Of a stretch of DNA of 64,000 nucleotides, positions 3,555 to 50,986 are shown piece by piece; the stretch's first letter is position 1; each line of letters opens with the position of its first letter. The stretch covers positions 62,001-126,000 of the forward strand of contig NZ_LR134313.1 in the NCBI RefSeq assembly GCF_900636765.1, given 5' to 3'. Source of the stretch: Neisseria canis (GTDB lineage: Bacteria; Pseudomonadota; Gammaproteobacteria; Burkholderiales; Neisseriaceae). The notes beneath the pieces are model-generated. The model made no database searches, was not told the DNA's origin, and worked only from the letters and a program-made list of their open reading frames with translations. The position numbers were made by a program, and so were the translations under genes.

Positions 3555-3758
3555 ATCACGTTCCTTAAAATATTAACTTATCTTGGTAATGAATATAATC
3601 TTATGTTTATTATTTGTTTTTTTATAAAAACAAATCAGAAAGAGGAAATTTTATTAACAGCTTCCATATTTCCGACTTCTGATATGACTATTATAAAACT
3701 ATATGTGTAACGAAGAAAGCTGGCAGCCGTTTTTTTCAGAAACATCATCATAATAGAA

Positions 3759-36404: not shown

Positions 36405-37498
36405 AAATGTGAAGAACCTGCGGGCGACGGCAACTCTACGAACCAAGTGGAAACCATCGGTGCCAACTTAAACCTCGGCAGCCGCCTGTTTGACCGCCTT
36501 ACTTTGAAATACGGCCTCAACTGGCGCCGGTAAGAATCCACACTGGGCAGCCGTATCTACAGACCGCGCGGTGGCCGCGGTCAGTCTAAGCTGCTGAATA
36601 CGGTTAACGAGAAAAAACCGACGTAGGCGCCTATGTTGAAGGCATTTGGGATTTGCACCCGGTAACGTTCACCACCGGCCTGCGTCACGACTATTACAAA
36701 ATGCGCACATCCCGCGGCAAAGAAGTGTCCGGCAGCAACCTCAACCCCAGTATCGGCGTGATTTACGATGTAACCGATAATTTGTCGCTCAACACCAGCC
36801 TTGCCTACGCCACCCACAGCCCACACATGTATGAAGCCACTTTGGCAGGCGGGCGCAATATTTCCTATGAAGGCGATCTGAAGGCCGAACGTTCGCGCAA
36901 TCTCGAACTCGGCATCAAATACAATTGGAATTCCGCACTGTCGCTGACCGGCAGCGTGTTCCACCAATCCATCAAAGACGTTCAAGCCTACACCAGTGAT
37001 GCCGAAAACATCACTTGGTATAACGGCGGTAAGCTGAAAAACAAAGGTTACGAGCTGGGTGCGGCCTACAAATGGGGCGGCTTAACCGCCCGTGCCGGCG
37101 TGGCATACAGTAAACCGAAGCCGGACAGCCAAACTGCCGACACCATCACCACAGCCATCCCGATGGGCCGCACTTGGACAACCAGGCTGGCTTACCAATT
37201 TGACAATCCAAATCTAGAAATCGGCTGGCGCGGCCGTTATATGCAAAATGCCGGCAACACCCAAAGCTCCCGCGGCTCTAACGGTTCGGTTTCATCTTCT
37301 CCGGTGCGGCGCTCCGGCTACGGCGTGAACGATATTTATGCCAACTGGAAACCGACCGGCAAAGACGATCTGAACGTCAACTTCTCCATCAACAACGTGC
37401 TGGATAAAAACTATAAAAACCACAGCCAGCGTGCAGGCACCAACAGCCTGACCGAGCCCGGTCGGGATTTCCACCTGAACGTAAATTACCGCTTCTAA
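36405..37498 (+). pseudogene. Decayed TonB-dependent receptor (FetA-like), C-terminal part only
   Basis: Only the beta-barrel end of an outer membrane siderophore receptor remains. The first frame (NQVETIGANLNLGSRLF) meets a TAA at 36531-36533. A frameshift follows in the A-run near 36613, where one more A would restore the reading ending EKKTDVGAYVEGIWDLHP. The last 281 codons are intact (TTGLRHDYYKMRTSRGKEVS, INNVLDKNYKNHSQRAG) and end at the aromatic NYRF expected of a barrel. The plug domain, signal peptide and start are missing. The fetB-like gene directly downstream suggests it was fetA. Confidence 0.8.
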
Positions 37499-37522
37499 TC
37501 GGTGCGGCAACGGCAGCTATTT

Positions 37523-37546
37523 TTCAGACAGGCATGCCTGTCTGAA
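37523..37546. repeat. Two DUS abutting head to head, 24-base perfect palindrome
   Basis: TTCAGACAGGCA is joined directly to TGCCTGTCTGAA. The order is opposite to the terminator pairs, and there is no loop. It lies between the receptor remnant and the fetB-like gene. Confidence 0.8.
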
Positions 37547-37581
37547 TCACTGAACGCACGCATCAAGGAGTGAACCTGATT

Positions 37582-38553
37582 ATGAACCGCCGTTTAACCA
37601 CTTTATTGGCACTGGCAGCACTTGCCGCCTGCTCCTCTCAAGAGGAAAAACCGGCAGGCCATGCATCCGCCCCCACCTCACATACCGCGCCCGCGGCTGC
37701 TAAAATCACCGGCGAGGCCGTAACCATAGAAACCGCCCGCGGCTCGGCGCAAGTGCCGAAAAATCCTAAAAACATCGCCGTGTATGACTGGGGCATGATG
37801 GATACCCTCAATGCGTTGGGCGTTGCGGTTGGCGCCGGCACCGATGACATCAGTCTTGAAAATATTGAAGCGGCCAACCAAAACCGCGTAAAAGTCGGCA
37901 CCCTGTTCGAGCCGAACTACGAAGCGCTGAACGCATTCAAACCCGATTTAATCATAACCGGTTCCCATACAGCCAAAGCATTTGACCGGCTCAATGCCAT
38001 CGCGCCGACCATCGAAATGACAGCCGATACCCACAACATGCGCATCAACGTAGAAGATCGCATCGATGCGTTTGCCAAAATCTTCAGTAAAGAGCAGGAA
38101 GCCGAAGCGCTTAAAGCCAAAATCAATACTGCATTCGACGAAGCCAGAGCGGCAGCCGCAGGCAAAGGCAAGGGCTTGATTGTTTTAACAAACGACGGAA
38201 AAATTGCCGCATTCGGCCAAAACTCCCGCTTCGGCTGGATTCATAAAGACGTAGGCGTGCCGTTAGCCGATGCCCTCATCAAAGAAAACGGCCAACCCGC
38301 TTCATTTGAATACATCAAACAAATCAATCCCGACTGGCTGTTCGTCATGGACCGCAGCGCCGCCATCGGCAAAGGTACGCCCGACAACGCCGCCGCTAAA
38401 GTGCTGGACAATCCGCTGGTCAATGAAACCAACGCTTGGAAAAAAGGCCAAGTGGTTTACCTGCTTTCATCCAATTATTTGGCCGCAGGCGGCGCACAAC
38501 AATTAATCGACGCCACAGCACAAGTGCGTAATGCGTTCAAAGCAACAAAATAA
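37582..38553 (+). CDS. fetB: Iron-siderophore binding lipoprotein, FetB-like
   Basis: The 323-residue precursor starts MNRRLTTLLALAALAACSS with a lipobox LAAC, then a class III periplasmic binding fold: NIAVYDWGMMDTLNALGV, EPNYEALNAFKPDLIITGS, KGLIVLTNDGKIAAFG, YIKQINPDWLFVMDRS and GQVVYLLSSNYLAAGG. It should deliver ferric siderophore to an ABC permease. An AAGGAG lies 11 bases before ATG 37582. The gene upstream is a broken receptor and the one downstream a permease remnant, so this lipoprotein may now be an orphan. The family is firm, the symbol by analogy. Confidence 0.85.
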   Translation: MNRRLTTLLALAALAACSSQEEKPAGHASAPTSHTAPAAAKITGEAVTIETARGSAQVPKNPKNIAVYDWGMMDTLNALGVAVGAGTDDISLENIEAANQNRVKVGTLFEPNYEALNAFKPDLIITGSHTAKAFDRLNAIAPTIEMTADTHNMRINVEDRIDAFAKIFSKEQEAEALKAKINTAFDEARAAAAGKGKGLIVLTNDGKIAAFGQNSRFGWIHKDVGVPLADALIKENGQPASFEYIKQINPDWLFVMDRSAAIGKGTPDNAAAKVLDNPLVNETNAWKKGQVVYLLSSNYLAAGGAQQLIDATAQVRNAFKATK

Positions 38554-38726
38554 GCCGGTTAATATCCGTTCATACATAACCAATAAACTTATTTTTCATG
38601 ATTTCGCCATACCGGATGAATCCGGGTATGGCGGAGAAATTATTTTTCAACTTATTTGTGCAGGCATACCAAGCTGCCGAACGTTTTCAGACAGGCATTG
38701 ATCTGTTTTCCTCCGCCCCTCGCCCC

Positions 38727-38948
38727 ATGTTGCAAAAATCTTTTTTCTTAAACCTATTCAGCTTGCTGTTTTTCATGGGCCTGTCGGCTGGCCTGGCCGA
38801 TTTATGCGGTGCAACCCGTTTGCCCGGTCGCACACGATGTGCAGCTGCTGATGACCAACCGGCTGTCGCGCCCTTTTGCCATTGTGTTAACCGGCGCGTT
38901 ACCGATGGGAGGCGACATAATTATGCAACCCCTGATTCGTAACTTATT
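38727..38948 (+). pseudogene. Remnant of FecCD-type iron permease
   Basis: Two fragments in different frames look like the start of a siderophore permease. The first reads MLQKSFFLNLFSLLFFMGLS; the second reads AHDVQLLMTNRLSRPFAIVL and then TGALPMGGDIIMQPLIRN, which parallels the family's 'R-L-P-R-T...G-A-A-L...G-x-x-M-Q...R-N' signature. The frame breaks near 38800 and the rest of the protein is absent. Position after the fetB-like gene supports the call, which rests on visual similarity only. Confidence 0.5.
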
Positions 38949-38966
38949 TAATATATCAATGAAAAA

Positions 38967-38993
38967 TGCCTGTCTGAAAATTTTCAGACAGGC
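38967..38993 (+). terminator. DUS-pair hairpin
   Basis: An inverted DUS pair with almost no loop lies just after the permease remnant and probably ends the former iron operon. Confidence 0.6.
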
Positions 38994-39152
38994 TTCTAAC
39001 TGTATGATTTAAGAATCTTAGTTCATCAAGCCGATTTAAAACGGCAAAGTTTTCGAGAAATCATTTTGCATAAAAAATAAATTTAAATTATAATATCTAT
39101 GTGGAATATTTTTTATTTCACTATATTACTTTCAAATTATAAGGAGATAGAT

Positions 39153-39332
39153 ATGCAAACATTAAATACACATGAATTAGAACAAGTAAGCGGCGGATTT
39201 ACTTGGACGCCTTCTTGTAGTTTTATCTCTACGCTTGCTAATTTCCTCAAAACTATAGATCCTGAAATTAGTTTATTGCCAACAAGAATTGCCATTGAAA
39301 TGGCAAGTGATGTTTGTGCCCCACATTTTTAA
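39153..39332 (+). CDS. Double-glycine leader peptide, microcin-like precursor 1
   Basis: The 59-residue product begins MQTLNTHELEQVSGG, a textbook double-glycine leader, followed by a 44-residue core (FTWTPSCSFISTLANF at its start, DVCAPHF at its end) with two cysteines. AAGGAG lies 6 bases before the ATG at 39153, and a DUS terminator follows. It is the only precursor of the island on the plus strand and lies outside the main operon, but its leader matches those of the others, so the same C39 transporter should process it. The function of the core is unknown; a bacteriocin or signal are both possible. Confidence 0.8.
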   Translation: MQTLNTHELEQVSGGFTWTPSCSFISTLANFLKTIDPEISLLPTRIAIEMASDVCAPHF

Positions 39333-39341
39333 TTGATATTA

Positions 39342-39381
39342 AAACAATGCCTGTCTGAAGTCTTTCAGACAGGCATTGTTT
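39342..39381 (+). terminator. DUS-pair terminator after precursor 1
   Basis: The DUS pair is extended by AAACA/TGTTT on its flanks and has a short GTC-containing loop. It begins 10 bases after the stop. Confidence 0.75.
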
Positions 39382-39419
39382 ATTGATGACACACAATGTC
39401 ATAAATATTCAGGAACAAC

Positions 39420-39531
39420 TATAGTTAATCAAATTAATTTTCAATACAAGGCAGCAAAGCCACAGAGAGTACGGGTAGCACAGCAAGGCGCAGCAACACC
39501 GTAGTAATAAAAGTTAAGTTGATTGACTATA
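39420..39531. repeat. Correia-like element, short form, 112 bp
   Basis: Bounded by TATAGTTAATCAA and TTGATTGACTATA, with AATACAAGGCAGCAAAGCC and AACACCGTAGTAATAAAAG inside. The core is more diverged (GAGAGTACGGGTAGCACAGC) than in the other copies. Confidence 0.75.
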
Positions 39532-39579
39532 TTCATCTTAATTATTGAAGCTCATAAGTTTTTAGTAACAAAAACGAAA

Positions 39580-39627
39580 GCACAGCTAAAAAATAATTCA
39601 ATAAACAGAATTATCTCTAAGCTGTGC
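39580..39627 (-). terminator. Hairpin after precursor 2
   Basis: GCACAGCT (39580-39587) pairs with AGCTGTGC (39620-39627), and inside it ATAATTC pairs with GAATTAT. It lies 36 bases past the stop of the precursor at 39664-39846 on the minus strand. Confidence 0.55.
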
Positions 39628-39663
39628 CCATTTAAAACTGGAAATTAAAAATTTTTATTATTC

Positions 39664-39846
39664 TTAATCGTCACAGTCATAATAACCGTAGCCCCAACCA
39701 TAGGAAGGAACAGGTACGGGAACAACAGGAACAACCGGTACTACCGGCACTGCTACTGCAGCAACATGCCAAGTAGGACCATAACCACAACAATATCCGT
39801 AACCGCCGGACACTTGTTCTACTTCTTTTATATTAAGAATTTCCAT
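39664..39846 (-). CDS. Double-glycine leader peptide, microcin-like precursor 2 (Pro/Val/Tyr repeats)
   Basis: The 60-residue product begins MEILNIKEVEQVSGG. The 45-residue core starts YGYCCGYGPTWH, continues with tandem Pro-Val-Val/Pro-Val steps (VPVVPVVPVVPVPVP) and ends SYGWGYGYYDCDD. Such a Gly/Tyr- and Pro/Val-rich core is unlike common bacteriocins. GGAG lies about 10 bases before ATG 39844-39846. It is on the same strand as the transporter genes but downstream of them, behind an AT-rich gap of about 250 bases that may hold its own promoter. Three cysteines could cross-link or bind metal. Confidence 0.78.
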   Translation of the reverse strand: MEILNIKEVEQVSGGYGYCCGYGPTWHVAAVAVPVVPVVPVVPVPVPSYGWGYGYYDCDD

Positions 39847-40097
39847 GATTATTAAGCTCCATATTTGTTTAAAGTGTTTGAGGTTATGTAACCCCATAAG
39901 CATAATATCATTTTATCATAAATAATTCTATTAAATTTATTAATCTTGCATACAAAATAATATGTTTTTCTCAATAAAAAGCCAATAGAAAATATATTTT
40001 TTTACAATATTACTATTAATATTATTAATAAAATTAAAATTTCAACAAAAATATAAATTAATAATTATAATACCTCAATATACTAAATAGTGCTTAT

Positions 40098-42191
40098 TCA
40101 GAATCCTTTTTCAAAATCCAAAACCCTATCTGCAGCATCTATAGTTTCTTTCCTATGAGCCACTACGATTTTAGTCACATTCAGGCTTTTGAGGTTTTCA
40201 TTAATCGCTCTTTCGTTTTCCACATCTAAGTTACTTGTTGCTTCATCTAAAAATAAAATTTTGGGTTCTTTGTATAAAGCCCGCGCCAAAATGATCCGTT
40301 GTTTTTGCCCTCCCGACAAAGCGCTTCCCATATCACCTATCAGAGTTTCATAAGTCATCGGCATTCTCATAATATCTTCATGTATCCTTGCAATAGCGGC
40401 GCATTGTACAATTTTTTGCTGATCGGGAGATTCATCAAAAAAGCAGATGTTTTCACTTATAGAGCCTGCAAATAACACATCATCTTGCGTTACCGTACCA
40501 ATCAGCCCCCTGATAAAGCGAGGAGAAGTTTTATGGATATCATGACCGTTAACCATTACCGTACCTGTTTCCGGTTTTAAATTACCGATCAGAATATTCA
40601 TTAAAGTCGACTTACCACAACCTGAACTACCGACAAATGCTACTGACTCACCTTGTTTAATATTTAGATTGATATTCTGCAGAATATACGGTTCATTATC
40701 AGAATATCGGAAAGAAACATTATTTACCTCAATATTGAGGTCGCCTTCTATTTCAGGAACAAACATTTCCTCTACTTTTTCAGTTTCCGTTTCCGTCAGC
40801 ACAATATCAGCCAGCCTTTCTGCATGAAGACTGAGCATTTTGATTTTGATAAACTGATCAATCAATTCCCCTATCCGGGTTTCAAACTGGTTTTTATATG
40901 CCCAAAATGCTGTGAGTGCACCTACCGAAAAAACACCGTCTAAAATATCATTGGCACCAAGATAAATAATCACGATACCTTCGATACCAAATAATAATTT
41001 ATTTGCGAAATCAAAAACATTGGTTAATTTTTGAGTAGTCAGATTGGTATTAACAGTATCTACAAACAAAGTCATCCACGAGCTATGCCTCTGCTCGTTT
41101 TTTTCAAACAGTTTTACAGTATGAATACCTCGAACCGTTTCCATAAAATAAGTGTTTTGCTTTGCTTCATGTACGATGTTCTCTTCTGTCGCATTCCGCA
41201 ACGGATAATAAGCCACGATTCTGATTATGATGTATAAAACCAGAGCCACAAGCACAACTACCGACAAAAGCCAGCTGTATAAAAACATCAACACAAGCGT
41301 AAATATCGCCATAATACCGCTTAAAACTGCTTTAAATGCGGTCGAAGTTAATGTTTCTTGGATTGAATCAATTGACCCGAATCGTGAAATCACATCACCC
41401 AAGTGCCGTTTGGAAAAATAATCGGCCGGTAATTCCAAAAGCCGTTTGAACATATTGGCTTTCCACTGAACATTCAAAGTGGTAGCCAAATGCATATTTA
41501 CCCACGCTTGTAACAGACCAGTAAGTTGTTCCAGTATTTTTAACAAACCGAAGGCCAGCACCAAAGTAATCAATAAGTTCTTATCGGCCGATAAAACCAC
41601 ATGGTCGATTACCCATTGCATCAAAAAAGGGCTGACCAAAGTAAAGATTTCCAATACCACGGCCAGTATCAACACTTGTGCCAAAGAGCGTTTAATACCT
41701 GTAACGCCTTTGAGCAAGGTAAGGATTCTAACTTTCTGTTTTTCCTCTTTTTCTTCAAAGTGCGTATTAGGCCAAAGTTCGAGCGCGATACCTGTGAATT
41801 TTTGGGAAACTTCCTCAAGTTTGATTTTGCGCATACCCATTGCAGGGTCCATGATGACAATACCGTCTTTAACCACCGATTTTAAAACAACAAAATGGTT
41901 TAAATCCCAATGTAAAATACATGGTACACGCAGGTTTTCCAAATCACCCAAATCCAATCGCAATGCGCGCGAAGTCAGATTCAGATCATTGGCAAAACGC
42001 ACAATATCGGCAAGCGTTGATCCCTTTTGTGATAAAGAATATTTGTGGCGCATCGTACGTAAATCAGTATGATAGCCATGATAACCCGCAATTGCTGTTA
42101 AGCAGGCCAAGCCGCATTCCGCAATTTCCGTTTGAAGTACGACAGGAAGTTTTTTTCCAAATCCAAAAGATAGGCGTTCTAAATATTTCAT
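40098..42191 (-). CDS. C39 peptidase-containing ABC transporter (microcin exporter)
   Basis: The 697-residue inner membrane protein joins leader cleavage and export, like CvaB. Residues 15-145 form a C39 cysteine peptidase: Cys26 in TEIAECGLACLTAIAG, His99 in HWDLNHFVVL and Asp115 in DPAMGMR. Then come six membrane helices (about 165-440) and an ATPase domain with Walker A GSSGCGKST (about 515), signature LSGGQKQR (about 625), Walker B ILFLDEATS and H-loop AHRKE. All catalytic residues are present. Its ATG overlaps the stop of the membrane fusion gene (TGATG). It should cut the ten GG-leader precursors around it. Confidence 0.95.
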   Translation of the reverse strand: MKYLERLSFGFGKKLPVVLQTEIAECGLACLTAIAGYHGYHTDLRTMRHKYSLSQKGSTLADIVRFANDLNLTSRALRLDLGDLENLRVPCILHWDLNHFVVLKSVVKDGIVIMDPAMGMRKIKLEEVSQKFTGIALELWPNTHFEEKEEKQKVRILTLLKGVTGIKRSLAQVLILAVVLEIFTLVSPFLMQWVIDHVVLSADKNLLITLVLAFGLLKILEQLTGLLQAWVNMHLATTLNVQWKANMFKRLLELPADYFSKRHLGDVISRFGSIDSIQETLTSTAFKAVLSGIMAIFTLVLMFLYSWLLSVVVLVALVLYIIIRIVAYYPLRNATEENIVHEAKQNTYFMETVRGIHTVKLFEKNEQRHSSWMTLFVDTVNTNLTTQKLTNVFDFANKLLFGIEGIVIIYLGANDILDGVFSVGALTAFWAYKNQFETRIGELIDQFIKIKMLSLHAERLADIVLTETETEKVEEMFVPEIEGDLNIEVNNVSFRYSDNEPYILQNINLNIKQGESVAFVGSSGCGKSTLMNILIGNLKPETGTVMVNGHDIHKTSPRFIRGLIGTVTQDDVLFAGSISENICFFDESPDQQKIVQCAAIARIHEDIMRMPMTYETLIGDMGSALSGGQKQRIILARALYKEPKILFLDEATSNLDVENERAINENLKSLNVTKIVVAHRKETIDAADRVLDFEKGF

Positions 42192-43468
42192 CAGTTAAAC
42201 TTCCCTGTGATGCTGTAAAGCGGGTCAAGCACCCATTCATAAAGTTTCTTACGCTCATGCAAAATATCTGCTTCGGCTACCATCCCGATTTGTAGAGGCC
42301 TCTCTTCACCATAAACTTTTATCGTTTGCTTCTCCAATTTAACTTTGACCAAATAAACAGGTTCATTACTCCTAGCCTGTGTTTGGTCGGAAAAAATGCT
42401 GCCTAAACTTGCCAGCTCCTGTTTACCCAAAGCAGTTTTCGCCACAGAAATAATTTTGCCCTTCGCATGGCCGAATTTTTCGTAAGGATAAGCTTGATAA
42501 CGCAACACCACTTCATCGTTAGACTTAATAAAACCTATTGCGCTGCTGGGCACATAAAGATTAGCAATCAACTCGGTATTACCCGGAACAATACTTAATA
42601 AAAGCGTAGACGGTTCGACTTGCTGCCCAACCTCCACATTCGAAGTACTTACATAGCCCGACCTGCTGGCACGAATCGTTTGCTCTTGCTGTAAATCCAG
42701 ATTTAACTCTTCCTGTGTTACTTCCGATACCGTACGATTGAGTTGGCTTAATTCCGATTTCTGCTTTTCGGGCAAATCAGCCAAACTCTGCTGCTGGCTG
42801 TTTAATTCTCTCAAAATACTGGCTTCTTCGCGTTTTAAAGCATTCAATTGTGAAACCTGATCCAAATAATCGTTTTCATAACCTATCATTTGTTGTTCGG
42901 AAATAAAGCCTTGTTTCATCAAAGGGCGGTATTTGTCTATAATCTGTTTTGCCAAAGCAACCCTTTTCTTCTGGCCGCTTTGCTGGCTTTTCACGTCAGA
43001 CAATTGGGTTTGAAGCTTATGGATACTGTCTTTTAATGTTTTTGCTTCGCCTTTTTGTAGATTTTTTTTCTGTTCGATTTCTTGCAACAACATTTTCTTC
43101 TTGGTTTCGGCCTCCCTCACTAATTCGGCACGAATATCTCCCTGCCCGTTATAACGGGGCATTGATAAGGTCAGGAGCTCATCGCCTTCTCTTACCAAAT
43201 CTCCATCAGAAACTTTCTTATCAGTAATAAAACCCGTATCCGGCGCATAAACCCGCGCCAAACCGGATACAGGAAGCAACTGACCTTCCACCGTAGTTTT
43301 TCGGGTGTAACTACCCCAGAATGCAAAAATAACAATCACCGCAGCAACTGCTACCGCACACCATGTTAAGAACACAAAAGAAAATGGCCGGGTCATAACC
43401 ACATGACCAGTCCATTTATTTTTCTTTGCTTCAAAAACTTCGGGACGGAAAAAATTGTCTGAACTCAT
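42191..43468 (-). CDS. HlyD-family membrane fusion protein of the peptide exporter
   Basis: The 425-residue adaptor bridges the ABC transporter and the outer membrane channel, as CvaA does. It has a cytoplasmic N-terminus, one membrane segment (FVFLTWCAVAVAAVIVIFAF), a lipoyl half (VEGQLLPVSGLARVYAPDTG), a long coiled coil (about residues 95-275) and the second lipoyl/barrel part (RASRSGYVSTSNVEVGQQVE, PLQIGMVAEADI). It is translationally coupled to the ABC gene by a one-base overlap. A hairpin (43590-43620) separates it from the precursor genes upstream. Confidence 0.93.
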   Translation of the reverse strand: MSSDNFFRPEVFEAKKNKWTGHVVMTRPFSFVFLTWCAVAVAAVIVIFAFWGSYTRKTTVEGQLLPVSGLARVYAPDTGFITDKKVSDGDLVREGDELLTLSMPRYNGQGDIRAELVREAETKKKMLLQEIEQKKNLQKGEAKTLKDSIHKLQTQLSDVKSQQSGQKKRVALAKQIIDKYRPLMKQGFISEQQMIGYENDYLDQVSQLNALKREEASILRELNSQQQSLADLPEKQKSELSQLNRTVSEVTQEELNLDLQQEQTIRASRSGYVSTSNVEVGQQVEPSTLLLSIVPGNTELIANLYVPSSAIGFIKSNDEVVLRYQAYPYEKFGHAKGKIISVAKTALGKQELASLGSIFSDQTQARSNEPVYLVKVKLEKQTIKVYGEERPLQIGMVAEADILHERKKLYEWVLDPLYSITGKFN

Positions 43469-43589
43469 AAAATTGCCAAAATAGCTTTCTTAATGGAAAT
43501 CTAAAGTATCACAAGACCTGAGTAAATTTCAGTTCATTTTTGAGATAGTAATTTTACAAAATAGTTCAACTTAAATTGCAATATAACTA

Positions 43590-43620
43590 GGGGTTCAACT
43601 TAGGCTATTAAGCGAACCCC
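43590..43620 (-). terminator. Hairpin between precursor genes and exporter genes
   Basis: GGGGTTC (43590-43596) pairs with GAACCCC (43614-43620) around a 17-base loop. There is no strong U-run after it on the minus strand, so partial termination or RNA processing that lowers exporter levels relative to precursors is more likely than full termination. Confidence 0.4.
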
Positions 43621-43675
43621 CTGTTTTAAAAATAACCAATAGATAACTTAATGATTCAAACTTAGCACTGCCAAG

Positions 43676-43846
43676 TTAATAAGGCATCAAGCGAACAATA
43701 TCGACAATAGTAGTATAGATATTAAAAGGTGAATCGCGTGGCTCAGTACTAGGTATACTAGGAAAAATAATGTTTAAATCATCATCCATAATAATCATCA
43801 CACCACCCACTGCATTTCTTAACTCTCCGGCCGTCAAAGTTTTCAT
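43676..43846 (-). CDS. Double-glycine leader peptide, microcin-like precursor 3
   Basis: The 56-residue product begins MKTLTAGELRNAVGG, with a core of 41 residues starting VMIIMDDDLNIIFPSIPS and ending VDIVRLMPY. AAGGAGATAG lies just before the ATG (43844-43846). The core is acidic near its start and hydrophobic after, without cysteine. It is the last precursor before the exporter genes on the same strand. The leader fits the island consensus less well at one position (NAV for xxV). Confidence 0.75.
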   Translation of the reverse strand: MKTLTAGELRNAVGGVMIIMDDDLNIIFPSIPSTEPRDSPFNIYTTIVDIVRLMPY

Positions 43847-43862
43847 CAAACTATCTCCTTGG

Positions 43863-43997
43863 TTAAATAAATTTGAATAGCTCGGAAATTCTAGAACCAT
43901 CCCACCAAACACCATCTTTATCAAAAAATGGAGGCGGGTCAATAAATCTGCGGCCACCCGATACAATCTCAAATTCTTGTAATTCTAAAACGCTCAT
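43863..43997 (-). CDS. Double-glycine leader peptide, microcin-like precursor 4
   Basis: This short gene of 44 codons encodes MSVLELQEFEIVSGG followed by a core of 29 residues that starts RRFIDPPPFFDKDG and ends RISELFKFI. The ATG is at 43995-43997, the TAA at 43863-43865, and GGAG lies about 9 bases upstream. It sits 16 bases upstream of precursor 3. The leader's E-x-x-x-V-S-G-G pattern matches its neighbours, which is the main reason to accept so small a gene. The core is aromatic and mixed-charge. Confidence 0.72.
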   Translation of the reverse strand: MSVLELQEFEIVSGGRRFIDPPPFFDKDGVWWDGSRISELFKFI

Positions 43998-44027
43998 TTC
44001 TCACAGCTCCATAAAAAATGAACAGAA

Positions 44028-44204
44028 TCAGTAAGGATTCGGACAAACTACATCGGGGCACTTATCTCCTGGAGGACAAGGATAACAAGGCACCCAAGGA
44101 TCAATCGGGCGGGGTATCGGTATAGGCTTCCATCTATCAAACCAATCATCCCAAAAACCACCTCCGGCTACATTTTTTAGCTCATTACTGGTCAAAGCTT
44201 TCAT
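44028..44204 (-). CDS. Double-glycine leader peptide, microcin-like precursor 5 (Pro/Cys-rich)
   Basis: The gene of 58 codons encodes MKALTSNELKNVAGG and a 43-residue core that starts GFWDDWFDRWKPIPIPRP and continues DPWVPCYPCPPGDKC, then PDVVCPNPY. Four cysteines and many prolines suggest a disulfide-bonded or metal-binding peptide. The ATG is at 44202-44204 with AAGGAG about 7 bases before it. It is 30 bases upstream of precursor 4 and on the same strand. No homologue is known to me. Confidence 0.77.
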   Translation of the reverse strand: MKALTSNELKNVAGGGFWDDWFDRWKPIPIPRPIDPWVPCYPCPPGDKCPDVVCPNPY

Positions 44205-44244
44205 TACATTATCTCCTTATGATTAAATTTATTAATTAAATTTC

Positions 44245-44436
44245 TTAATCTTTCAGAATTTCTCGAATTTCGCGCCAATCATCACGAATTTCGCGCCAGT
44301 CATCACGGATATTTTTACCTGCTTCCGAAAAAGCATCACCCAAAGTATTAAAACTTTCTTTAATCAGATCGCGAAATACCTTCCAGTTAGCGCCACCAGA
44401 AACTTGTTGCAATTGGTTTTTATCAAGCTCTTTCAT
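44245..44436 (-). CDS. Double-glycine leader peptide, microcin-like precursor 6 (heptad repeat)
   Basis: The 63-residue product begins MKELDKNQLQQVSGG. The core starts ANWKVFRDLIKESFNTL and ends with tandem 7-residue repeats IRDDWRE-IRDDWRE-IREILKD, encoded by 21-base direct repeats near 44250-44320. The core is a strongly charged amphipathic helix. A ribosome site AAGGAG precedes ATG 44434-44436. Repeat-driven change in copy number could alter core length. It is 40 bases upstream of precursor 5 in the same direction. Confidence 0.8.
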   Translation of the reverse strand: MKELDKNQLQQVSGGANWKVFRDLIKESFNTLGDAFSEAGKNIRDDWREIRDDWREIREILKD

Positions 44437-44927
44437 AAAAGTTCACTCCTTATAAAATTTAGGAATATCGAAAAATAATAAGTTAACCAGGCATTAAACC
44501 CTCTTACATACTATCGCCACTTAAAAAATAATTCAATTGTCATTTTTTTATTTTCGGAAATTTTACGTTTACATTTACAATACAAAAATTTATTAACAAG
44601 CCAACAAAAAGTTCTAACAGAAACAATACAAAATGTATATTTATTCTTGCTTTTTTATAGTTTTAACACTAGAAGGATAGTTGGCTCAAACACAAAATAT
44701 GAAAGCAAGGATGATCAATGATTATAGAAATGCCTGTCTGAGAGAGTTTTCAGACAGGCATTATTTATACTACCAAAAATCCTGCAGCTTTAAGTGTAGC
44801 ATTAGAGCTAAATTTACTCGAATTTCTTACCATATATAACGGTTTGTTGAGATACAGACGAACCCAACAACTACATTTAGTTGCTCTTTCCTATACAATT
44901 ACTAACCCCAATGAGCCACATCACTAC
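44437..44927. other. AT-rich gap inside the peptide island
   Basis: The gap of 491 bases carries a DUS-pair terminator (44728-44762) that ends the unit containing precursor 7. The right-hand side of precursor 6 (44440-44720) is very AT-rich and probably holds the promoter of precursors 6-3 and the exporter. No further GG-leader peptide was found on either strand. Confidence 0.55.
44728..44762 (-). terminator. DUS-pair terminator after precursor 7
   Basis: The left arm is TGCCTGTCTGAG (one change) and the right arm is perfect. It lies about 165 bases after the stop of precursor 7 on the minus strand. Confidence 0.6.
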
Positions 44928-45074
44928 TTATCTGAATTGTCTGAGCCACTGCGCCCATTGCCAAGCAAGAAGCTTAGCGCGAAGGGCAGGACTCGGTGGA
45001 GGGGGAACCGGAAACCGGAATCCACCACTAACATTTTCTAATTCATGCAACTTTAATTCAACCATGTTATTCAT
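44928..45074 (-). CDS. Double-glycine leader peptide, microcin-like precursor 7 (Pro/Trp-rich)
   Basis: The gene of 48 codons encodes MNNMVELKLHELENVSGG, a leader nearly identical to those of precursors 8 and 9. The 30-residue core starts FRFPVPPPPSPALRAK and ends LLAWQWAQWLRQFR. This is a Pro-rich segment followed by a cationic Trp-rich helix, a composition seen in membrane-active peptides. The ATG is at 45072-45074 with AAGGA about 9 bases upstream. It lies just downstream of the remnant at 45107-45163 and upstream of a DUS terminator. Confidence 0.77.
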   Translation of the reverse strand: MNNMVELKLHELENVSGGFRFPVPPPPSPALRAKLLAWQWAQWLRQFR

Positions 45075-45106
45075 AATAAATATCCTTAAGTTAATAAATC
45101 TTGAAA

Positions 45107-45163
45107 TTATTTAAGGCTACTTAATCCCAGAACAATACCAGCTAAAAAACCCAACAGCTTTGT
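45107..45163 (-). pseudogene. Remnant of the 28-residue hydrophobic peptide gene
   Basis: The 18 codons before TAA 45107-45109 read TKLLGFLAGIVLGLSSLK, parallel to the end of the intact peptide at 45545-45631 (VGFLSGVFVGLNSLK). An in-frame stop precedes it and no ATG is available, so it looks like a 5'-truncated copy. Confidence 0.5.
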
Positions 45164-45267
45164 TTATACAGATTGTTACAAAAGTTATGATGTATTGATA
45201 TCAGCGAATTCAATCATTTTTGCATCAATTACAGTACACATTTTGATCAACAGCAAAACCGCATGAT

Positions 45268-45437
45268 ATTGAGAACTTTTGGAATCAGGCAAAACGGTCA
45301 TTATGCGTAAGTTCAATGACATTCCTAAAGCCCATTTTGAGCTATACTCGAAAGGATATGAACTGCGTTTTAATCACAGTAAAATAAAGTTTCAATTATC
45401 CGTTTTGAAACAATTAGTAAGCGACAATTTAGCCTAG
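45268..45437 (+). pseudogene. IS1016-like (IS1595 family) transposase remnant
   Basis: The plus strand encodes IENFWNQAKRS (from 45268), then after a frame change RKFNDIPKAHFELYSKGYEL and RFNHSKIKFQLS, ending TAG 45435-45437. This order (IENFWxxxKR, RKFNGIPxxHFxLYLKExExRFN) is the C-terminus of IS1595-family transposases such as those of IS1016. The rest of the element is gone. It marks past transposition inside the peptide island. Confidence 0.65.
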
Positions 45438-45544
45438 TTATCTAATAAGACAACACTCAATTATATTAATTTTCAAGGATTTGATTTTTCTAAATTTTTA
45501 ATTTTTATTAATGATCATTGACTTAGTAAATTCTTGAATAAAAT

Positions 45545-45631
45545 TTACTTAAGACTATTCAAACCAACAAAAACTCCACTCAAAAATCCTACGGATCCTA
45601 AAATTGCTAAAGCAAATATAATTAGATTCAT
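45545..45631 (-). CDS. 28-residue hydrophobic peptide, possible immunity or accessory peptide
   Basis: A short frame encodes MNLIIFALAILGSVGF followed by LSGVFVGLNSLK, one membrane-spanning helix with no GG leader. ATG is at 45629-45631 with GGAAAGAG upstream. It lies about 107 bases after precursor 8 on the same strand, and a truncated second copy occurs upstream of precursor 7. The pairing of a precursor with this small membrane peptide suggests an immunity or accessory role, but this is inference from position and size; it could also be a chance frame. Confidence 0.45.
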   Translation of the reverse strand: MNLIIFALAILGSVGFLSGVFVGLNSLK

Positions 45632-45738
45632 TTTTACTCTTTCCATTTGTCAATAAACCTTATTTTAATTTGAGAATTTTAAGTTGTGGCAGTTAGGCTT
45701 GCATAACACTGAACGCGTGCAAGCCTAATCTAATAAAG

Positions 45739-45933
45739 TTAGTGTTTTTGACCAAAATACCTTGCAAACTTATATCCACCATAAGCTGTACCAGCGGTTA
45801 TAGCAGCGCCTCCGACAACACCTGCAACAATTTTCAATCCTTTAATCACGGCAGGAGCCACCAAAAAAGCAGGCAGCGCACCACCATTAACATATTCCAA
45901 CTCATGCGATTTTAATTCAACCATATTACTCAC
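45739..45933 (-). CDS. Double-glycine leader peptide, microcin-like precursor 8
   Basis: The 64-residue product begins MSNMVELKSHELEYVNGG using GTG 45931-45933, with GGAG 7 bases upstream; an in-frame ATG lies three codons later. The core starts ALPAFLVAPAVIKGLKIV, contains a small-residue stretch (VVGGAAITAGTAY) and ends GGYKFARYFGQKH. This glycine/alanine-rich hydrophobic core with a cationic tail resembles class II microcins. Precursor 9 next door shares the leader and the end, so the two arose by duplication. Confidence 0.82.
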   Translation of the reverse strand: MSNMVELKSHELEYVNGGALPAFLVAPAVIKGLKIVAGVVGGAAITAGTAYGGYKFARYFGQKH

Positions 45934-45990
45934 AAACAAACTCCTATTACAATAAACAAATTTATTAACTAAAATTTAATAAAGTAAAAA

Positions 45991-46158
45991 CTAGTGTTTT
46001 TGACCGAAATATCTTGCAAACTTATATCCACCATAAGCTGCAACACCAGTTACAACAACACCCCCTACAATCCTAAGACCCCAAACAACCAAAGCAGGCA
46101 GCGCACCACCATTAACATATTCCAACTCATGCGATTTTAATTCAACCATATTATTCAT
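45991..46158 (-). CDS. Double-glycine leader peptide, microcin-like precursor 9
   Basis: The 55-residue product begins MNNMVELKSHELEYVNGG and has a shorter core, ALPALVVWGLRIVGGVV to AAYGGYKFARYFGQKH. Compared with precursor 8 the leader and last 15 residues are the same, while the middle lacks about nine residues. The upstream sequence (TTAATAAATTTGTTTATTG) is shared with precursor 8 too. ATG is at 46156-46158. The pair might act together as a two-peptide system or represent recent diversification. Confidence 0.82.
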   Translation of the reverse strand: MNNMVELKSHELEYVNGGALPALVVWGLRIVGGVVVTGVAAYGGYKFARYFGQKH

Positions 46159-46238
46159 AAATAAAATCCTAATTACAATAAACAAATTTATTAACTAAAA
46201 AATATATAACTAAAGTTCTGCAATATTTATTCTGCGCA

Positions 46239-46376
46239 TTAATCTTTTAAAGAAGCAAGACCTACTGTGATCCCCGAACCAAAGCCAGTAGCTGCAAGTG
46301 CTGCATACGCACCGATCAATGCTGGAATTACACCACCTGCTACATTTTCCAATTCATATTGATTCAATTCTTTCAT
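46239..46376 (-). CDS. Double-glycine leader peptide, microcin-like precursor 10
   Basis: The gene of 45 codons encodes MKELNQYELENVAGG and a 30-residue core starting VIPALIGAYAALAATGFG and ending SGITVGLASLKD. It is a glycine/alanine-rich hydrophobic peptide typical of class II microcins. ATG is at 46374-46376 with GGAG about 10 bases upstream. It is the first precursor gene of the minus-strand series and faces the tolC-like gene. A 22-base palindrome lies 44 bases upstream. Confidence 0.8.
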   Translation of the reverse strand: MKELNQYELENVAGGVIPALIGAYAALAATGFGSGITVGLASLKD

Positions 46377-46781
46377 TACTTAATACTCCATAGGTTAAAA
46401 TTCAATGTAAATAAATATCAAGATCTTAAATTTAAGACCTTGTCATAATCAGAGCCCGCTGCCTCAATTTTGTTTCATTAAGTTTTGCATTTTTATGTAA
46501 ATTTATTTGTTTGTCATAAAATGCTGTTTAGAAAAAATAGCCAACACTAGTGAAACTCTATAATTCCGAATAACCACAATCATAAAAAGCAAACACGAGT
46601 CATACCGCAACTGGAATTTATCCATTTTCTGAATAATATAAAGAACATTTAAAATAAAACGGTCATTTATCTATCTTCTTCCTAACCACAAACCATTACT
46701 GAAACAACACCTTAAATTATGGAACTATTAAAAAAAATACCATTCAAACTCTTTTTAATACCAATAATCCTCTAAAGAATC
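46377..46781. promoter_or_regulatory. Divergent control region, peptide operon / tolC-like gene
   Basis: The 405 AT-rich bases separate the divergent precursor series and the tolC-like gene, so promoters for both should lie here. A near-perfect 22-base palindrome (46420-46441) is the best operator candidate. No DUS and no GG-leader gene were found in this stretch. Confidence 0.5.
46420..46441. promoter_or_regulatory. Candidate operator palindrome
   Basis: The half-sites AAGATCTTAAA and TTTAAGACCTT match in reverse complement at all but one position. It lies between the start of precursor 10 and the expected promoter. No regulator gene was found in the island to pair it with. Confidence 0.4.
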
Positions 46782-48098
46782 ATGTCTCGACTCAAATTCT
46801 TAGCAGCTGTATTTCCCATTATTTTCTTCTCATCATCAAACAGTTATGCTTTCTCTCTTGCAGAAGCATGGAAAGCAGCAGTTGACTATTCGGCGGATTA
46901 TTCAGCTTCAAAACATGAACGCGATGCTGAAGCAGAACAAAAACGGATAGCCCGATCGGCCTTACTGCCCAAAATTACAGCAAACGCTTCTTATCAAAGG
47001 CATCCTTCATCCAGTTCTTCAGAAACCCGCTCTCAAGGCTGGAATATTCAAGCCAGCCAAGTTTTGTTTGATAAAAGCCGCTATGCTCAATATAAGCAGG
47101 GGAAACTTGCAGAAGAATCGGCCAATGCCAAATTAGACAGTAAAGAAGGAGAGCTGCTGCTTAATGTTTCAAAAGCATATTTCGATGTTTTACTTCAAAA
47201 AGACAAGCTTTCTGCCATACGCAAAGAAAAATCTGCGTATGAGCAGCAAATGAAACAAGCAAAAGAAATGTTCAAGCAAGGTGCTGCCACGATTATTGAT
47301 ACCCACGAAGCTAAATCCGGTTATGATGCGGCATTGTCAAAAGAAATTGAAACACTTACACAATTGGAAATTGCTGAAAATACTCTGGCCGATATGACCG
47401 GTTTAAATCCCAAACTCATTAGAACCATTAAAATTTCTCCCAATAACACAAATTTGCTCGGCTATACCAAAGAACAAGACTGGCAGTCGCTGGCAGAGAG
47501 TCATAACCCTGAATGGCTTCAACAAAAATTAGCCTTGGCAAGTTCCAAAGAAGGGCTTAAAGCAGCCAAAGGAAAACATTGGCCTACGGTCACGCTCAAC
47601 GGAGGCTACCAAAACAATATGAATACGGTAGAAAACGAAGCTTACGGCGGTGAATATAAGTATCGCAGCAAAGGCGGCACCATCTCGGTTGATGTCAACA
47701 TGCCCCTCTACACCGGAGGAGAAACCTCCAGCCTAATCCGGCAGGCTGCGGCGCAAGAAATGCAGAATCAGGATCTATTAACCGCAACAGAGCGTAAAAT
47801 CAAACTGGCAATAAAACAAGCTTACCGATCCACCAGCAGCAATAAAATTTTGATGATGGCTCAAGAGCGGCTGCTGGTAACCAACCAAGCTAAACTGGAT
47901 TCGACCAAATTAGGCCGCCAAGTCGGCGTACGAAACAACTTAGAAGAAATACAGGCCCAACAAAACAAGGCAGAAGCCGAACAAAAACTCGCAGAAGCAA
48001 AATACGCTTATGTACAGTCTTATTTACAGCTGCTACAAAGTGCCGGCGTACTTACCGAACCCGAACGCCAAATCCAGATCCATCAAACACTCTATTAA
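46782..48098 (+). CDS. TolC-like outer membrane efflux channel
   Basis: The 438-residue precursor has a signal peptide (FLAAVFPIIFFSSSNSYAF) and the two-fold coiled-coil pattern of TolC proteins: SLAEAWKAAVDYSADYSASK, ARSALLPKITANASYQ, LLLNVSKAYFDVLLQKDKL, then LAESHNPEWLQQKLALASSK, VTLNGGYQNN and VDVNMPLYTGGETSS in the second half. It diverges from the peptide operon and would complete a tripartite exporter with the C39 ABC protein and the HlyD-type protein. It may also serve the RTX protein encoded at 53135-54904. A DUS terminator follows. Confidence 0.92.
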   Translation: MSRLKFLAAVFPIIFFSSSNSYAFSLAEAWKAAVDYSADYSASKHERDAEAEQKRIARSALLPKITANASYQRHPSSSSSETRSQGWNIQASQVLFDKSRYAQYKQGKLAEESANAKLDSKEGELLLNVSKAYFDVLLQKDKLSAIRKEKSAYEQQMKQAKEMFKQGAATIIDTHEAKSGYDAALSKEIETLTQLEIAENTLADMTGLNPKLIRTIKISPNNTNLLGYTKEQDWQSLAESHNPEWLQQKLALASSKEGLKAAKGKHWPTVTLNGGYQNNMNTVENEAYGGEYKYRSKGGTISVDVNMPLYTGGETSSLIRQAAAQEMQNQDLLTATERKIKLAIKQAYRSTSSNKILMMAQERLLVTNQAKLDSTKLGRQVGVRNNLEEIQAQQNKAEAEQKLAEAKYAYVQSYLQLLQSAGVLTEPERQIQIHQTLY

Positions 48099-48127
48099 AG
48101 TAAATCCCGTTTATTGGGCTTCTCCCT

Positions 48128-48162
48128 AAATGCCTGTCTGAAAACCTTTTCAGACAGGCATT
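48128..48162 (+). terminator. DUS-pair terminator after tolC-like gene
   Basis: Inverted DUS copies with a 5-base loop lie 30 bases after the stop. A further single DUS lies near 48222. Confidence 0.7.
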
Positions 48163-48283
48163 CTTCACACTTCATTTGACTACATCCCGCTACATTGCTA
48201 ACAATACTTCCCTATTCCCTTTTTCAGACAGGCATACCGCCTGCCTTCAAGCTTCACATCATTAATAAGGCAAAAGACACATC

Positions 48284-50986
48284 ATGCAATTTCATCAAAT
48301 CAACAACCCGAAAGACGCCCCGCTGGCCGAAGACGCCGCATTTTTAGGCCAAGCCCTTATCCGCATGCTGGAAAACGAAACCAGCGAAGCCGTAATTTCC
48401 GTGGTCAAACAGCTTGCCGAAAGCCAAGACAGCACCCGCATCATCGCCGCCGCGCTGCCCAATCTCAACGCCAAGCAAACCCAAAACCTGATTATCGCGT
48501 GCAGCCTGTTTTCCCAAATGCTCAATATCGCCGAAGACGTGCACCACCAGCGCCGCCGCCGCGCCCACGAACAAGGCAGCAACCGGCATGCCGAAGGCAG
48601 CGTATCCGGGTTGATCGAAAAGCTCAAAAATGCCGGCATTGATTCGGCAACCCTGCAAAACCAACTTGAACAAACCACCGTAGCCGCCGTGTTAACCGCC
48701 CACCCGACGGAAGTGCAGCGGCAGGCCACCTTGAATTTCCACCGCCGCATACGCGCACTCTTACCCTTGCGCGAACAATGTATCGGCCAAGACGAATTAA
48801 ACAGCCTCCAGCGCGAAATCGAAACCGTGTTGTTGGCTTTGTGGCAAACCAGCGAAACCCGCCATTACAAAATCACCGTAGAAAACGAAATCAATAACGG
48901 CGTATCCATTTTCCCGCTCAGCTTCTTTCAGGCCGTGCCGCAGCTCTACCGCAGCATGCAGCAAACTTTTCAGACAGGCTTTCCCGAAATCAAGCTGCCC
49001 GATTTACTGCACATCGGCGGCTGGATAGGCGGCGACCGCGACGGCAACCCGTTTGTTTCCGCCAAAACCCTGCGCCACGCCTTCAAGCAGCACGCCGACG
49101 CCGTGTTCCACTACTACCGCAAACAGCTTGGCGAACTCTTCGCCGACCTGCCTTTATCCACCCGCCGCGTGCAGGTCAGCAACGCCGTGTTGTCGCTCTC
49201 CGAACAATCGCCCGACAACGAAATCGCCCATTTTGAAGAGCCTTACCGCCGCGCCATTGCGCTGATTTCCTCGCGCATCGTCGCCACCGGCCATGCTCTC
49301 GGCCTCACGCTCGGCTGCCGCTGGGGCTTGGGCGAACCTTATCCTGACGCAGAAGCATTTATCAGCGATTTGCGCACTTTGCAGCAATCCCTGTTCGACA
49401 ACGGCAGCCGCCTGCTGGCTGAAGCACGTATTGCCGATTTGATACGCGCCGCTTCCGTGTTCCGCTTCCATTTAATGCCGCTCGATTTGCGCCAACATGC
49501 CGCCAAACACGGCGAAGTAGTGGCCGAACTGTTCCGCCACGCCGGTTTGGAAGCCTACCAATCGCTGGGCGAAGCCGAAAAACAAACCGTTTTGCTGCGC
49601 GAGCTGCACACCCAGCGCCCGCTTTACAACCCCTATGTTACTTACAGCGAACACACGCAGCACGAGTTGGATATTTTCCACGAAGCCCGCCGCGTGAAAA
49701 ACGAATTCGGCGAGCAGGCCATCTGCCAAAGCATCATTTCCAACTGCGGGCAGCCCAGCGACCTGCTCGCTCTCGCCCTGATTCTGAAAGAAAGCGGCCT
49801 ACTCTCCATCAAAGAAGGCCTGCCTGAAAGCCGCATCAACATCGTGCCGCTGTTTGAAACCATCGAAGCCCTGCAAAACGCCACCCGCGTGATGGACACC
49901 CTGTTTTCCCTGCCGTGGTACCAAGCCCTGCTCAAAAGCCGCGGCCATATCCAAGAAATCATGCTCGGCTATTCCGACAGCAATAAAGACGGCGGCTATG
50001 TCACCAGCTCATGGTGCCTCTATCAGGCCGAGCAGGAATTGGTCGAACTCTTCCGCCGCCGCAACGTGCGCTTACGCCTGTTCCACGGGCGCGGCGGCAG
50101 CGTCGGGCGCGGCGGCGGCCCCTCTTACCAAGCCATTCTCGCCCAACCTGCCGGCAGCGTGGCCGGCCGCATCCGCATCACCGAGCAAGGCGAAGTCATC
50201 ACCGCCAAATACGCCGACCCGGCCAACGCCTGCCGCAACCTCGAAACCCTGGTCAGCGCCACGCTGGAAGCCAGCCTGCTGCCCTATGCAGGCGGAGAAC
50301 CCGACCCGCAACTGATGCAGGCACTTTCAGAACACGCGTTCAACCACTACCGCGCCCTCATCACCCACCCCGATTTTATCGACTATTTCCTGCAAACCAG
50401 CCCGATTCAGGAAATCGCCACCCTGAATCTCGGCAGCCGCCCCGCCAGCCGCAAAACACTGGCGCGCATTCAAGATTTGCGCGCCATTCCCTGGGTATTC
50501 TCCTGGACGCAAAACCGCCTGATGCTCCCCGCCTGGTACGGTTTCGGCACCGCCGTCGCCACACTTTGCCGAGAAGCCGGCAAGCTCGAGGCCTTGCAGG
50601 AACACGCCCGCAACAACGCCTTTTTCCGCGCCATGCTTTCCAACATGGAGCAAGTGATGGCCAAAACCGACCTGACCATCGCAGAAAACTACACCACCTT
50701 GAGCAACCGCCCCGAAGCCACCCGCGCCTTATTCGACATGATCAAACAAGAATACCAAGCCAGCCGCGAAGCCCTGCTCAAGATCCTGCAAACCGACGGG
50801 CTGCTCAGCGAAAACCGCAGCCTCGCCCGCTCCCTCGCCTTGCGCATTCCTTACCTAAACGCACTCAACAGCCTGCAAGTGCTGCTGCTAAAAGAACTGC
50901 GCCGCTCGCCGGAAAATCAGGAAATCCTCAAACTCGTCCACCTTACCATCAACGGTGTGGCACAAGGATTACGCAACACAGGTTAA
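48284..50986 (+). CDS. ppc: Phosphoenolpyruvate carboxylase
   Basis: Ppc fixes bicarbonate onto phosphoenolpyruvate to give oxaloacetate and refill the TCA cycle. The 900-residue product has the first catalytic site [39 protein letters not shown], the second site [16 protein letters not shown], the [20 protein letters not shown] loop and the universal C-terminus GLRNTG. An internal DUS encodes FQTGFPE. The gene is strikingly GC-rich compared with the peptide island that precedes it. It is followed by a DUS terminator and an insertion sequence. Confidence 0.97.

Follow-up and report, generated by a model that had tools for sequence, protein, structure and literature searches.

A multi-peptide double-glycine secretion island in Neisseria canis with a single C39-ABC exporter and a changeable precursor repertoire

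We describe an island at positions 39153–48098 of a 64,000-nucleotide stretch of the Neisseria canis genome (contig NZ_LR134313.1, positions 62,001 to 126,000; the whole stretch is called the window below), where ten small genes with double-glycine (GG) leaders are grouped with a C39-peptidase ABC transporter (C39-ABC exporter), an HlyD-type adaptor and a TolC-like channel. With reasonable though far from full confidence, we read it as an exporter-centred, multi-peptide GG secretion system of the class II bacteriocin (microcin) type, with a swappable repertoire and a probably antagonistic role. Rather than one bacteriocin, such a system would probably provide a chemical arsenal that can change.

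Ten precursors and one exporter

A strict GG-leader pattern, run on the open reading frames (ORFs) of the whole window, matches exactly ten of them, all within 39153–46376, as a first-pass annotation of this DNA had proposed. The leaders are close to MKxLxxxELxxVxGG, all but one of the ORFs lie on the minus strand, and each has an ATG together with a Shine-Dalgarno-like pentamer. Chance can be rejected as the origin of the leaders: 300 shuffles of the region 38501–48500, made in blocks of two bases, gave a mean of 0.09 matches and a maximum of 1, which sets ten observed against about 0.09 expected per 10 kb. The cores that follow are all short, at 29–48 amino acids (aa), and by charge (Lys plus Arg minus Asp plus Glu) five are acidic (−2 to −4), two neutral and three cationic. 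The GC content of 39100–46780 is 0.359, compared with 0.496 in the remaining window.

Of the five components of a class II microcin system listed in PMC9746304, the island has GG precursors (10 of 10), a C39-ABC protein with its Cys/His/Asp triad, an HlyD adaptor and TolC, while no cognate immunity protein was found beside any of the ten in the downstream test described below. The exporter (40098–42191, minus strand, 697 aa) has Peptidase_C39, ABC_membrane and ABC_tran domains with Walker A, signature and Walker B motifs, and the Cys26, His99 and Asp115 that the first-pass annotation had pointed out are invariant across 12 aligned sequences. By coordinates its gene has one base in common with that of the HlyD-type periplasmic adaptor (42191–43468, minus strand; PF13437 and PF16576 over their cut-offs), and the TolC-like outer membrane channel (OEP) is encoded at 46782–48098 on the plus strand (438 aa; PF02321, 195 bits). 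Full-length relatives of the exporter among solved structures include 4ry2, an ABC-type bacteriocin transporter, and ComA; it also matches mad3 and mad8 in PADLOC, with the matching stretches lying within the ATPase part. As is established for these protein families, the C39-ABC protein would bind the common leader and cut after GG, and together with the adaptor and the channel it would release the cores. The N. canis genome (one contig of 2,569,389 bases) holds a single C39 domain at E≤1e-5, that of the island exporter.

A genome-wide set and a constant peptide

We searched 46 Neisseria genomes, N. canis included, with a profile of 38 leaders. The set of ten is complete for the island but not for the genome, which gives 13 matches at E≤0.1, the additional three lying at 1,587,377, 1,587,592 and 2,508,954. 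A further match at 2,394,351 (E=0.57) is also a GG ORF, and one at E=1.38, inside a 528-residue frame, was set aside. Since the genome has a single C39 domain, the unlinked peptides, if C39-processed, must use the island exporter, which thus probably serves them in trans too.

Seven of the 46 genomes, again including N. canis, carry an exporter at least 79% identical to that of the window, a line set after the data had been seen, and the exporter of N. wadsworthii 9715 (locus L009) is 99% identical. These seven hold 33, 17, 17, 14, 13, 13 and 9 leader matches against 0–6 in the other 39 (one-sided Mann-Whitney p 2.9e-7), a comparison that is partly circular, since the profile was built from leaders of the same seven genomes and may undercount in the others. 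A stricter ORF count of the genome with most matches (33) gives 24, over loci fetched that hold fewer than all the matches, and the largest island (L104, in G010) has 14 precursors by strict count. The profile search of relatives suggested by the first-pass annotation finds many matches in these seven genomes, and those at E≤0.01 are confined to Neisseria (14 of 83 genomes of the family), with the same partial circularity. Identical named peptides point to N. yangbaofengii as the species of G043, N. musculi as that of G020 and N. chenwenguii as that of G007.

One precursor, encoded at 44245–44436 on the minus strand, is a constant member of these islands. Matches of at least 65 bits occur in exactly the seven exporter-bearing genomes of the 46, as eight copies at the exporter locus, and cover 56–57 of 57 positions in six genomes and 1–38 in G010; the model was built from its matching members, and absence elsewhere is therefore the informative part. 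Weaker matches (about 30 bits or less), found in those seven genomes with one more in G025, cover mainly the leader. In L009, L102, L103, L104, L105 and L107 this peptide is the precursor closest to the channel gene or to a channel remnant, and in the window a 1.9-kb block lies between the two. A search of 5.8 billion proteins returned 16 matches, of which the three that carry a species name are all from Neisseria. The peptide is tentatively predicted to be an amphipathic helix: its hydrophobic moment is reached by a fraction of 0.007 of 1000 shuffles, and AlphaFold places a helix at 18–62 with low confidence (mean pLDDT 63.8).

Turnover of cassettes, replacement of cores and selection

Comparison with L009 shows how the rest of the set changes. 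Long aligned blocks of the 18-kb locus are 82–96% identical in DNA, and six of the ten precursors have orthologues there, the other four having none. The 1.9-kb block at 44796–46711, which contains four precursors, the ORF of a 33-aa membrane peptide and the remnant of an insertion sequence (IS), is absent from N. wadsworthii 9715: the alignment runs up to 46712 and resumes from 44795 with 17 bases between, and no run of N lies there (of 955 N in total, the visible run stops at 3561, past the channel gene). L009 has one extra precursor between the equivalents of 44245 and 44028.

The clearest case of core replacement is found in G007, where upstream-plus-leader DNA is 99.8% identical over 648 nt between 528,679 and 539,536; the identity ends at the GG codons and the cores beyond are unrelated. 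We surveyed such junctions in the 5,671 pairs formed by 107 precursors from the seven genomes, and in 21 pairs the homology reaches at least 65 nt upstream of the end of the GG. Where the two cores belong to different families (15 pairs), the homology ends 0–18 nt past the GG (0 nt in 10 of 15), compared with 14–137 nt in the 6 with related cores. The 21 pairs are non-independent, most reach barely past the start codon, and, on inspection by eye, 3 of the 15 show cores that are partly alike. In a database protein, P0021, the leader of one G043 precursor is followed by the core of a second, a fusion that could also stem from a deletion or an assembly joint.

One cassette has kept its order between genomes. 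In L136 (G021) and L139 (G007) two peptide families stand in the same order and are followed by a 32-aa membrane peptide resembling the one at 45545–45646. By eye there are three conserved pairs, of which only that of G007 and G021 is joined in both members by clustering, one of them via a loose family. The pair at 1,587,377 and 1,587,568 of N. canis resembles a pair inside the G010 island in leader, order and appearance and is unjoined by core clustering. In the window, 46239 adjoins 45991 and 45739, and the precursors at 3708 and 4077 of L105 look alike and stand in the same order, clustering joining one member of the pair, in a loose family. We treated as no homology the grouping of 32 mostly Gly-rich cores, 46239 among them, into one such family. 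Taken together, the genome comparisons show a repertoire that appears modular: the helical peptide is kept, the remaining precursors are gained and lost in small cassettes, and core replacement evidently takes place behind a conserved upstream-plus-leader segment.

The cores that persist are conserved. Pooled over 205 codons from five of the six orthologue pairs with L009, the ratio of non-synonymous to synonymous change (omega) is 0.136 for the cores (bootstrap 0.06–0.25) and 0.111 for the leaders (75 codons), compared with 0.03–0.06 for the exporter, adaptor and channel. Precursor 43676 was left out of the pool for its poor alignment, and its inclusion would raise the estimate. Judged by these rates, five of the six orthologous cores are under purifying selection, and the random drift that the first-pass annotation named as a possible refutation can be rejected for the five pairs pooled. 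Synonymous divergence is itself uneven between neighbouring genes (0.23 for the exporter, 0.77 for the adaptor and 0.35 for the channel), a pattern that recombination, by exchanging parts of the island, could give.

Immunity-like genes and rival readings

Missing immunity genes are the main weakness of an antagonistic role, and it is because of them that self-lysis, signalling and non-bacterial targets have to be weighed. We looked for membrane proteins of 45–100 aa encoded on the same strand at most 200 nt downstream of 116 precursors (seven rows of other systems having been dropped from 123), with upstream positions and other sizes outside the test. Where the core is at least 50 aa long, such a gene (49–90 aa) follows in 11 of 24 cases, compared with 0 of 231 control ORFs of at least 200 aa at the same loci, so that part of the set, the long Gly-rich relatives, resembles classical microcins; all ten precursors of the window belong to the short class.

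Several observations weigh against our reading. Only 2 of 92 shorter cores have a small membrane protein downstream (one of the two being probably a membrane ORF miscalled as a precursor), and none of the ten in the window has one within the limits of the test. Seven of the ten window cores are not cationic, and the core of 43676 has a pN of 0.298 and a pS of 0.320, amino-acid change being nearly as fast as silent change. Six genomes have exporters 65–73% identical to that of the window, yet 0–1 leader matches each; G025, G029 and G042 have 2, 3 and 6 leader matches but no C39-ABC exporter, and the precursors of G025 and G029, in which no C39 domain was found, are either remnants or have lost their exporter from the draft assemblies. 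Finally, the Naps, GG peptides of the gonococcus, were without antimicrobial activity in the assays described for that organism (PMC11798529).

The fast change of 43676 would also suit a decaying pile of duplicated leaders and drifting cores, as would the four precursors without an N. wadsworthii orthologue and, inside the block at 44796–46711, the IS remnant alongside a degraded membrane-peptide copy. We regard decay as extremely improbable, given the upper bound of 0.25 on the pooled omega and the start and ribosome-binding-like sites of all ten precursors.

The Naps suggest a second alternative, in which the targets would be not competitors but the producer's own stationary-phase cells, with DNA set free. 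Gonococcal GG peptides promote autolysis, the nap island is AT-rich like this one (38% against 53% GC, PMC11798529), and immunity-like genes are rare beside short precursors. The machinery differs, however, nap having a stand-alone C39 peptidase and a FapF-like channel where the present island has C39-ABC, HlyD and TolC-like components; related long precursors have immunity-like genes in 11 of 24 cases, and turnover and core replacement would suit competition better than fixed self-lysis. We consider self-lysis unlikely.

Alternatively, the cores could be pheromones read by neighbouring cells, the helical peptide, or another, serving as inducer. Precursor 39153 exceeds the cut-off of the pheromone-precursor model ComC (22.0 against 20.4) as well as that of bacteriocin_sig (17.5 against 15.7), and four others match ComC below cut-off; most short precursors have no immunity-like gene, and the meningococcal GG peptides were proposed to be bacteriocins or pheromones (PMC2784325). 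Both models describe leaders, and a ComC match is uninformative on the core; inspection by eye of the ORFs listed at 39099–46782, not each of them searched, shows neither a receptor kinase nor a regulator, and a set of ten different simultaneous signals would be unusual. Signalling seems to us a decidedly improbable role for the set, and antagonism a likely one.

Peptides aimed at host cells or protists, or shaping the surface or biofilm, would need no immunity either, and few short cores have immunity-like genes beside them. The short cores are Trp-rich, 73 of 88 containing Trp at 5.6% of residues compared with a fraction of 0.009 in window ORFs of at least 300 aa, and NapC lyses red blood cells (PMC11798529). 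A class IIb bacteriocin model fits three of the eight window precursors scanned with it, which argues for bacterial targets, and this alternative is in our view as improbable as signalling.

We keep to antagonism: the most likely targets of the peptides are competing bacteria, and some peptides may work as two-peptide pairs. A bolder and rather unlikely version is a diversity-generating system, in which one constant helical peptide and one exporter serve short cores spread over the genome and swapped exactly at the GG boundary, the helical peptide being a partner, carrier or antidote. If true, such a common function would explain the near-lack of immunity genes beside short cores.

Comparison with known systems

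C39 export of several GG peptides is a known kind of system, and in this respect the first-pass annotation, which had not recognised the multi-peptide system as described, is borne out only in part; its description of a multi-peptide GG island stands, and the repertoire appears maintained, with omega 0.14 and the exporter and helical peptide co-occurring in 7 of 7 genomes. Two C39 secretion units, with five GG peptides, have been reported from N. meningitidis 8013 (PMC2784325). This strain is alike in genus, in its C39-ABC protein, adaptor and TolC-like channel, and in its several small Gly-rich GG peptides, but has fewer of them than the island here, and we infer that it groups with the 65–73% identical exporters and their longer precursors (the L108–L112 type), apart from islands like that of the window. 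The nap island is likewise an AT-rich Neisseria island of small GG peptides, three of them cationic, with a demonstrated role in autolysis, and relies on the stand-alone C39 peptidase NapP and the channel NapF (PMC11798529). The present island has no such parts: the C39 domain, the one in the genome, is fused to ABC domains and the channel is of the OEP family.

McbABCI of Moraxella catarrhalis also uses a C39-ABC protein and an adaptor to export a GG bacteriocin, in that case a single one with an overlapping immunity gene (PMC2761928). Exporters 57% identical to that of the window occur in two other Moraxella genomes (L014, L015). At the unlinked N. canis locus 2,508,954 the precursor gene and that of its 78-aa membrane protein have 11 bases in common, much as McbC and McbI are arranged (PMC2761928); the island of the window shows no such likeness. 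Class II microcins of Enterobacterales have the same precursor, C39-ABC, adaptor and TolC; the ten verified ones, two pairs of which have a common export system, differ in having cognate immunity proteins of 51–216 aa in the account of PMC9746304.

The closest parallel in repertoire is Gram-positive. Across strains, the pneumococcal blp locus has eleven putative GG bacteriocin genes behind BlpAB, with leader recombination noted and the peptides thought to act as two-peptide bacteriocins (PMC4860687). In blp and in rtg (PMC7018657) several strain-variable GG peptides use one C39 exporter and leaders have recombined between genes. Unlike the island, blp has, as described, pheromone and two-component regulation and many immunity genes, for which we recognised no counterpart here. 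Our searches of the open-licence PMC literature gave no description of such a scale (33 leader matches in one Neisseria genome), of dispersal around a single C39-ABC exporter, of a helical peptide that stays constant or of cores replaced at the GG codons.

Other features of the island

The cores are mostly different, though not all unlike as first claimed, since 45991 is a close paralogue of 45739 and both, like 46239, exceed the cut-off of one class IIb model. At the left end, 39153–39332 on the plus strand, opposite to the other nine, encodes a 44-aa core with two Cys and has an orthologue in L009, as has 39664–39846, whose core has Gly/Tyr/Cys ends and a Pro-Val repeat. This and all following precursors are on the minus strand. 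The one at 43676–43846 is the most diverged from its N. wadsworthii counterpart; 43863–43997 has the strict leader pattern; and 44028–44204 has a core that is Trp-rich and then Pro/Cys-rich. Within the 1.9-kb block, the core of 44928–45074 is Pro-rich and then Trp-rich and cationic (net +5), and 45739–45933, Gly/Ala-rich, has a GTG start with an alternative ATG at 45924. Its close paralogue is 45991–46158, and 46239–46376 is a possible partner of these two. The model TIGR03949 (lactobin A/cerein 7B class IIb; cut-off 21.5 bits), with which eight of the ten were scanned (43863 and 44028 were left out), is passed by 45739 (23.4 bits), 45991 (27.2 bits) and 46239 (39.9 bits), the five others scoring below the cut-off. 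GxxxG motifs in both peptides are a criterion for class IIb two-peptide bacteriocins; counted without a chance control, there are two each in 45739, 46239 and 39664 and none in 45991.

The 33-aa peptide at 45545–45646 (minus strand) has a single membrane helix and no GG leader, and is a candidate immunity or partner peptide. As the sole immunity candidate in the island, and a weak one, it would serve one cassette. The similar 32-aa ORFs beside peptide pairs in L136 and L139 are 22–56% identical to it, and strong matches to a model of it occur only in G000, G007 and G021, the genomes behind that model; by eye there are a degraded relative in L102 and another in the window near 45110–45170. The IS remnant at 45160–45296 is 75% identical in DNA over 143 nt to an IS in L105 whose ORF matches DDE_Tnp_IS1595, and it is on this identity that the link rests, the remnant ORF at 45279–45434 having nothing over the cut-off in Pfam.

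Terminator-like sites number 16 against 5.5 expected, and a promoter scan shows no excess (26 sites against 30.1 in shuffles). Bordering the island, 36653–38553 contains what look by eye like the end of a TonB-receptor ORF and a periplasmic lipoprotein that binds iron compounds. The word TGCCTGTCTGAA, which we take to be the N. wadsworthii type of DNA uptake sequence, has 64 copies in the 64 kb on both strands, with inverted pairs at 39348/39364 and 48131/48149.

Among the relatives, the exporter of G014 (L099/L112) has one in-frame TGA, and beside the G043 island, at 1946–2170 of L105, only the first 75 channel residues are matched, the gene looking truncated or replaced. In L106, L108, L109, L110 and L111, whose exporters are 66–73% identical, unlike cores have a common C-terminal motif (for instance SGNNYDGTNY or GNNYCDDGTDY), which in this second group of Neisseria exporters may be a modification site or a receptor tag.

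Implications

The island would give a Gram-negative species a fast-changing peptide repertoire like that of blp, on an unusual scale, with up to 33 leader matches and a single C39-ABC exporter, and the junctions hint at the way in which an old leader acquires a new core. Judging by an identical named peptide, N. musculi, a mouse commensal with published mutant libraries, appears to have this system too, so that direct tests are possible. The 88 short cores of the seven genomes are candidates for new secreted activities.

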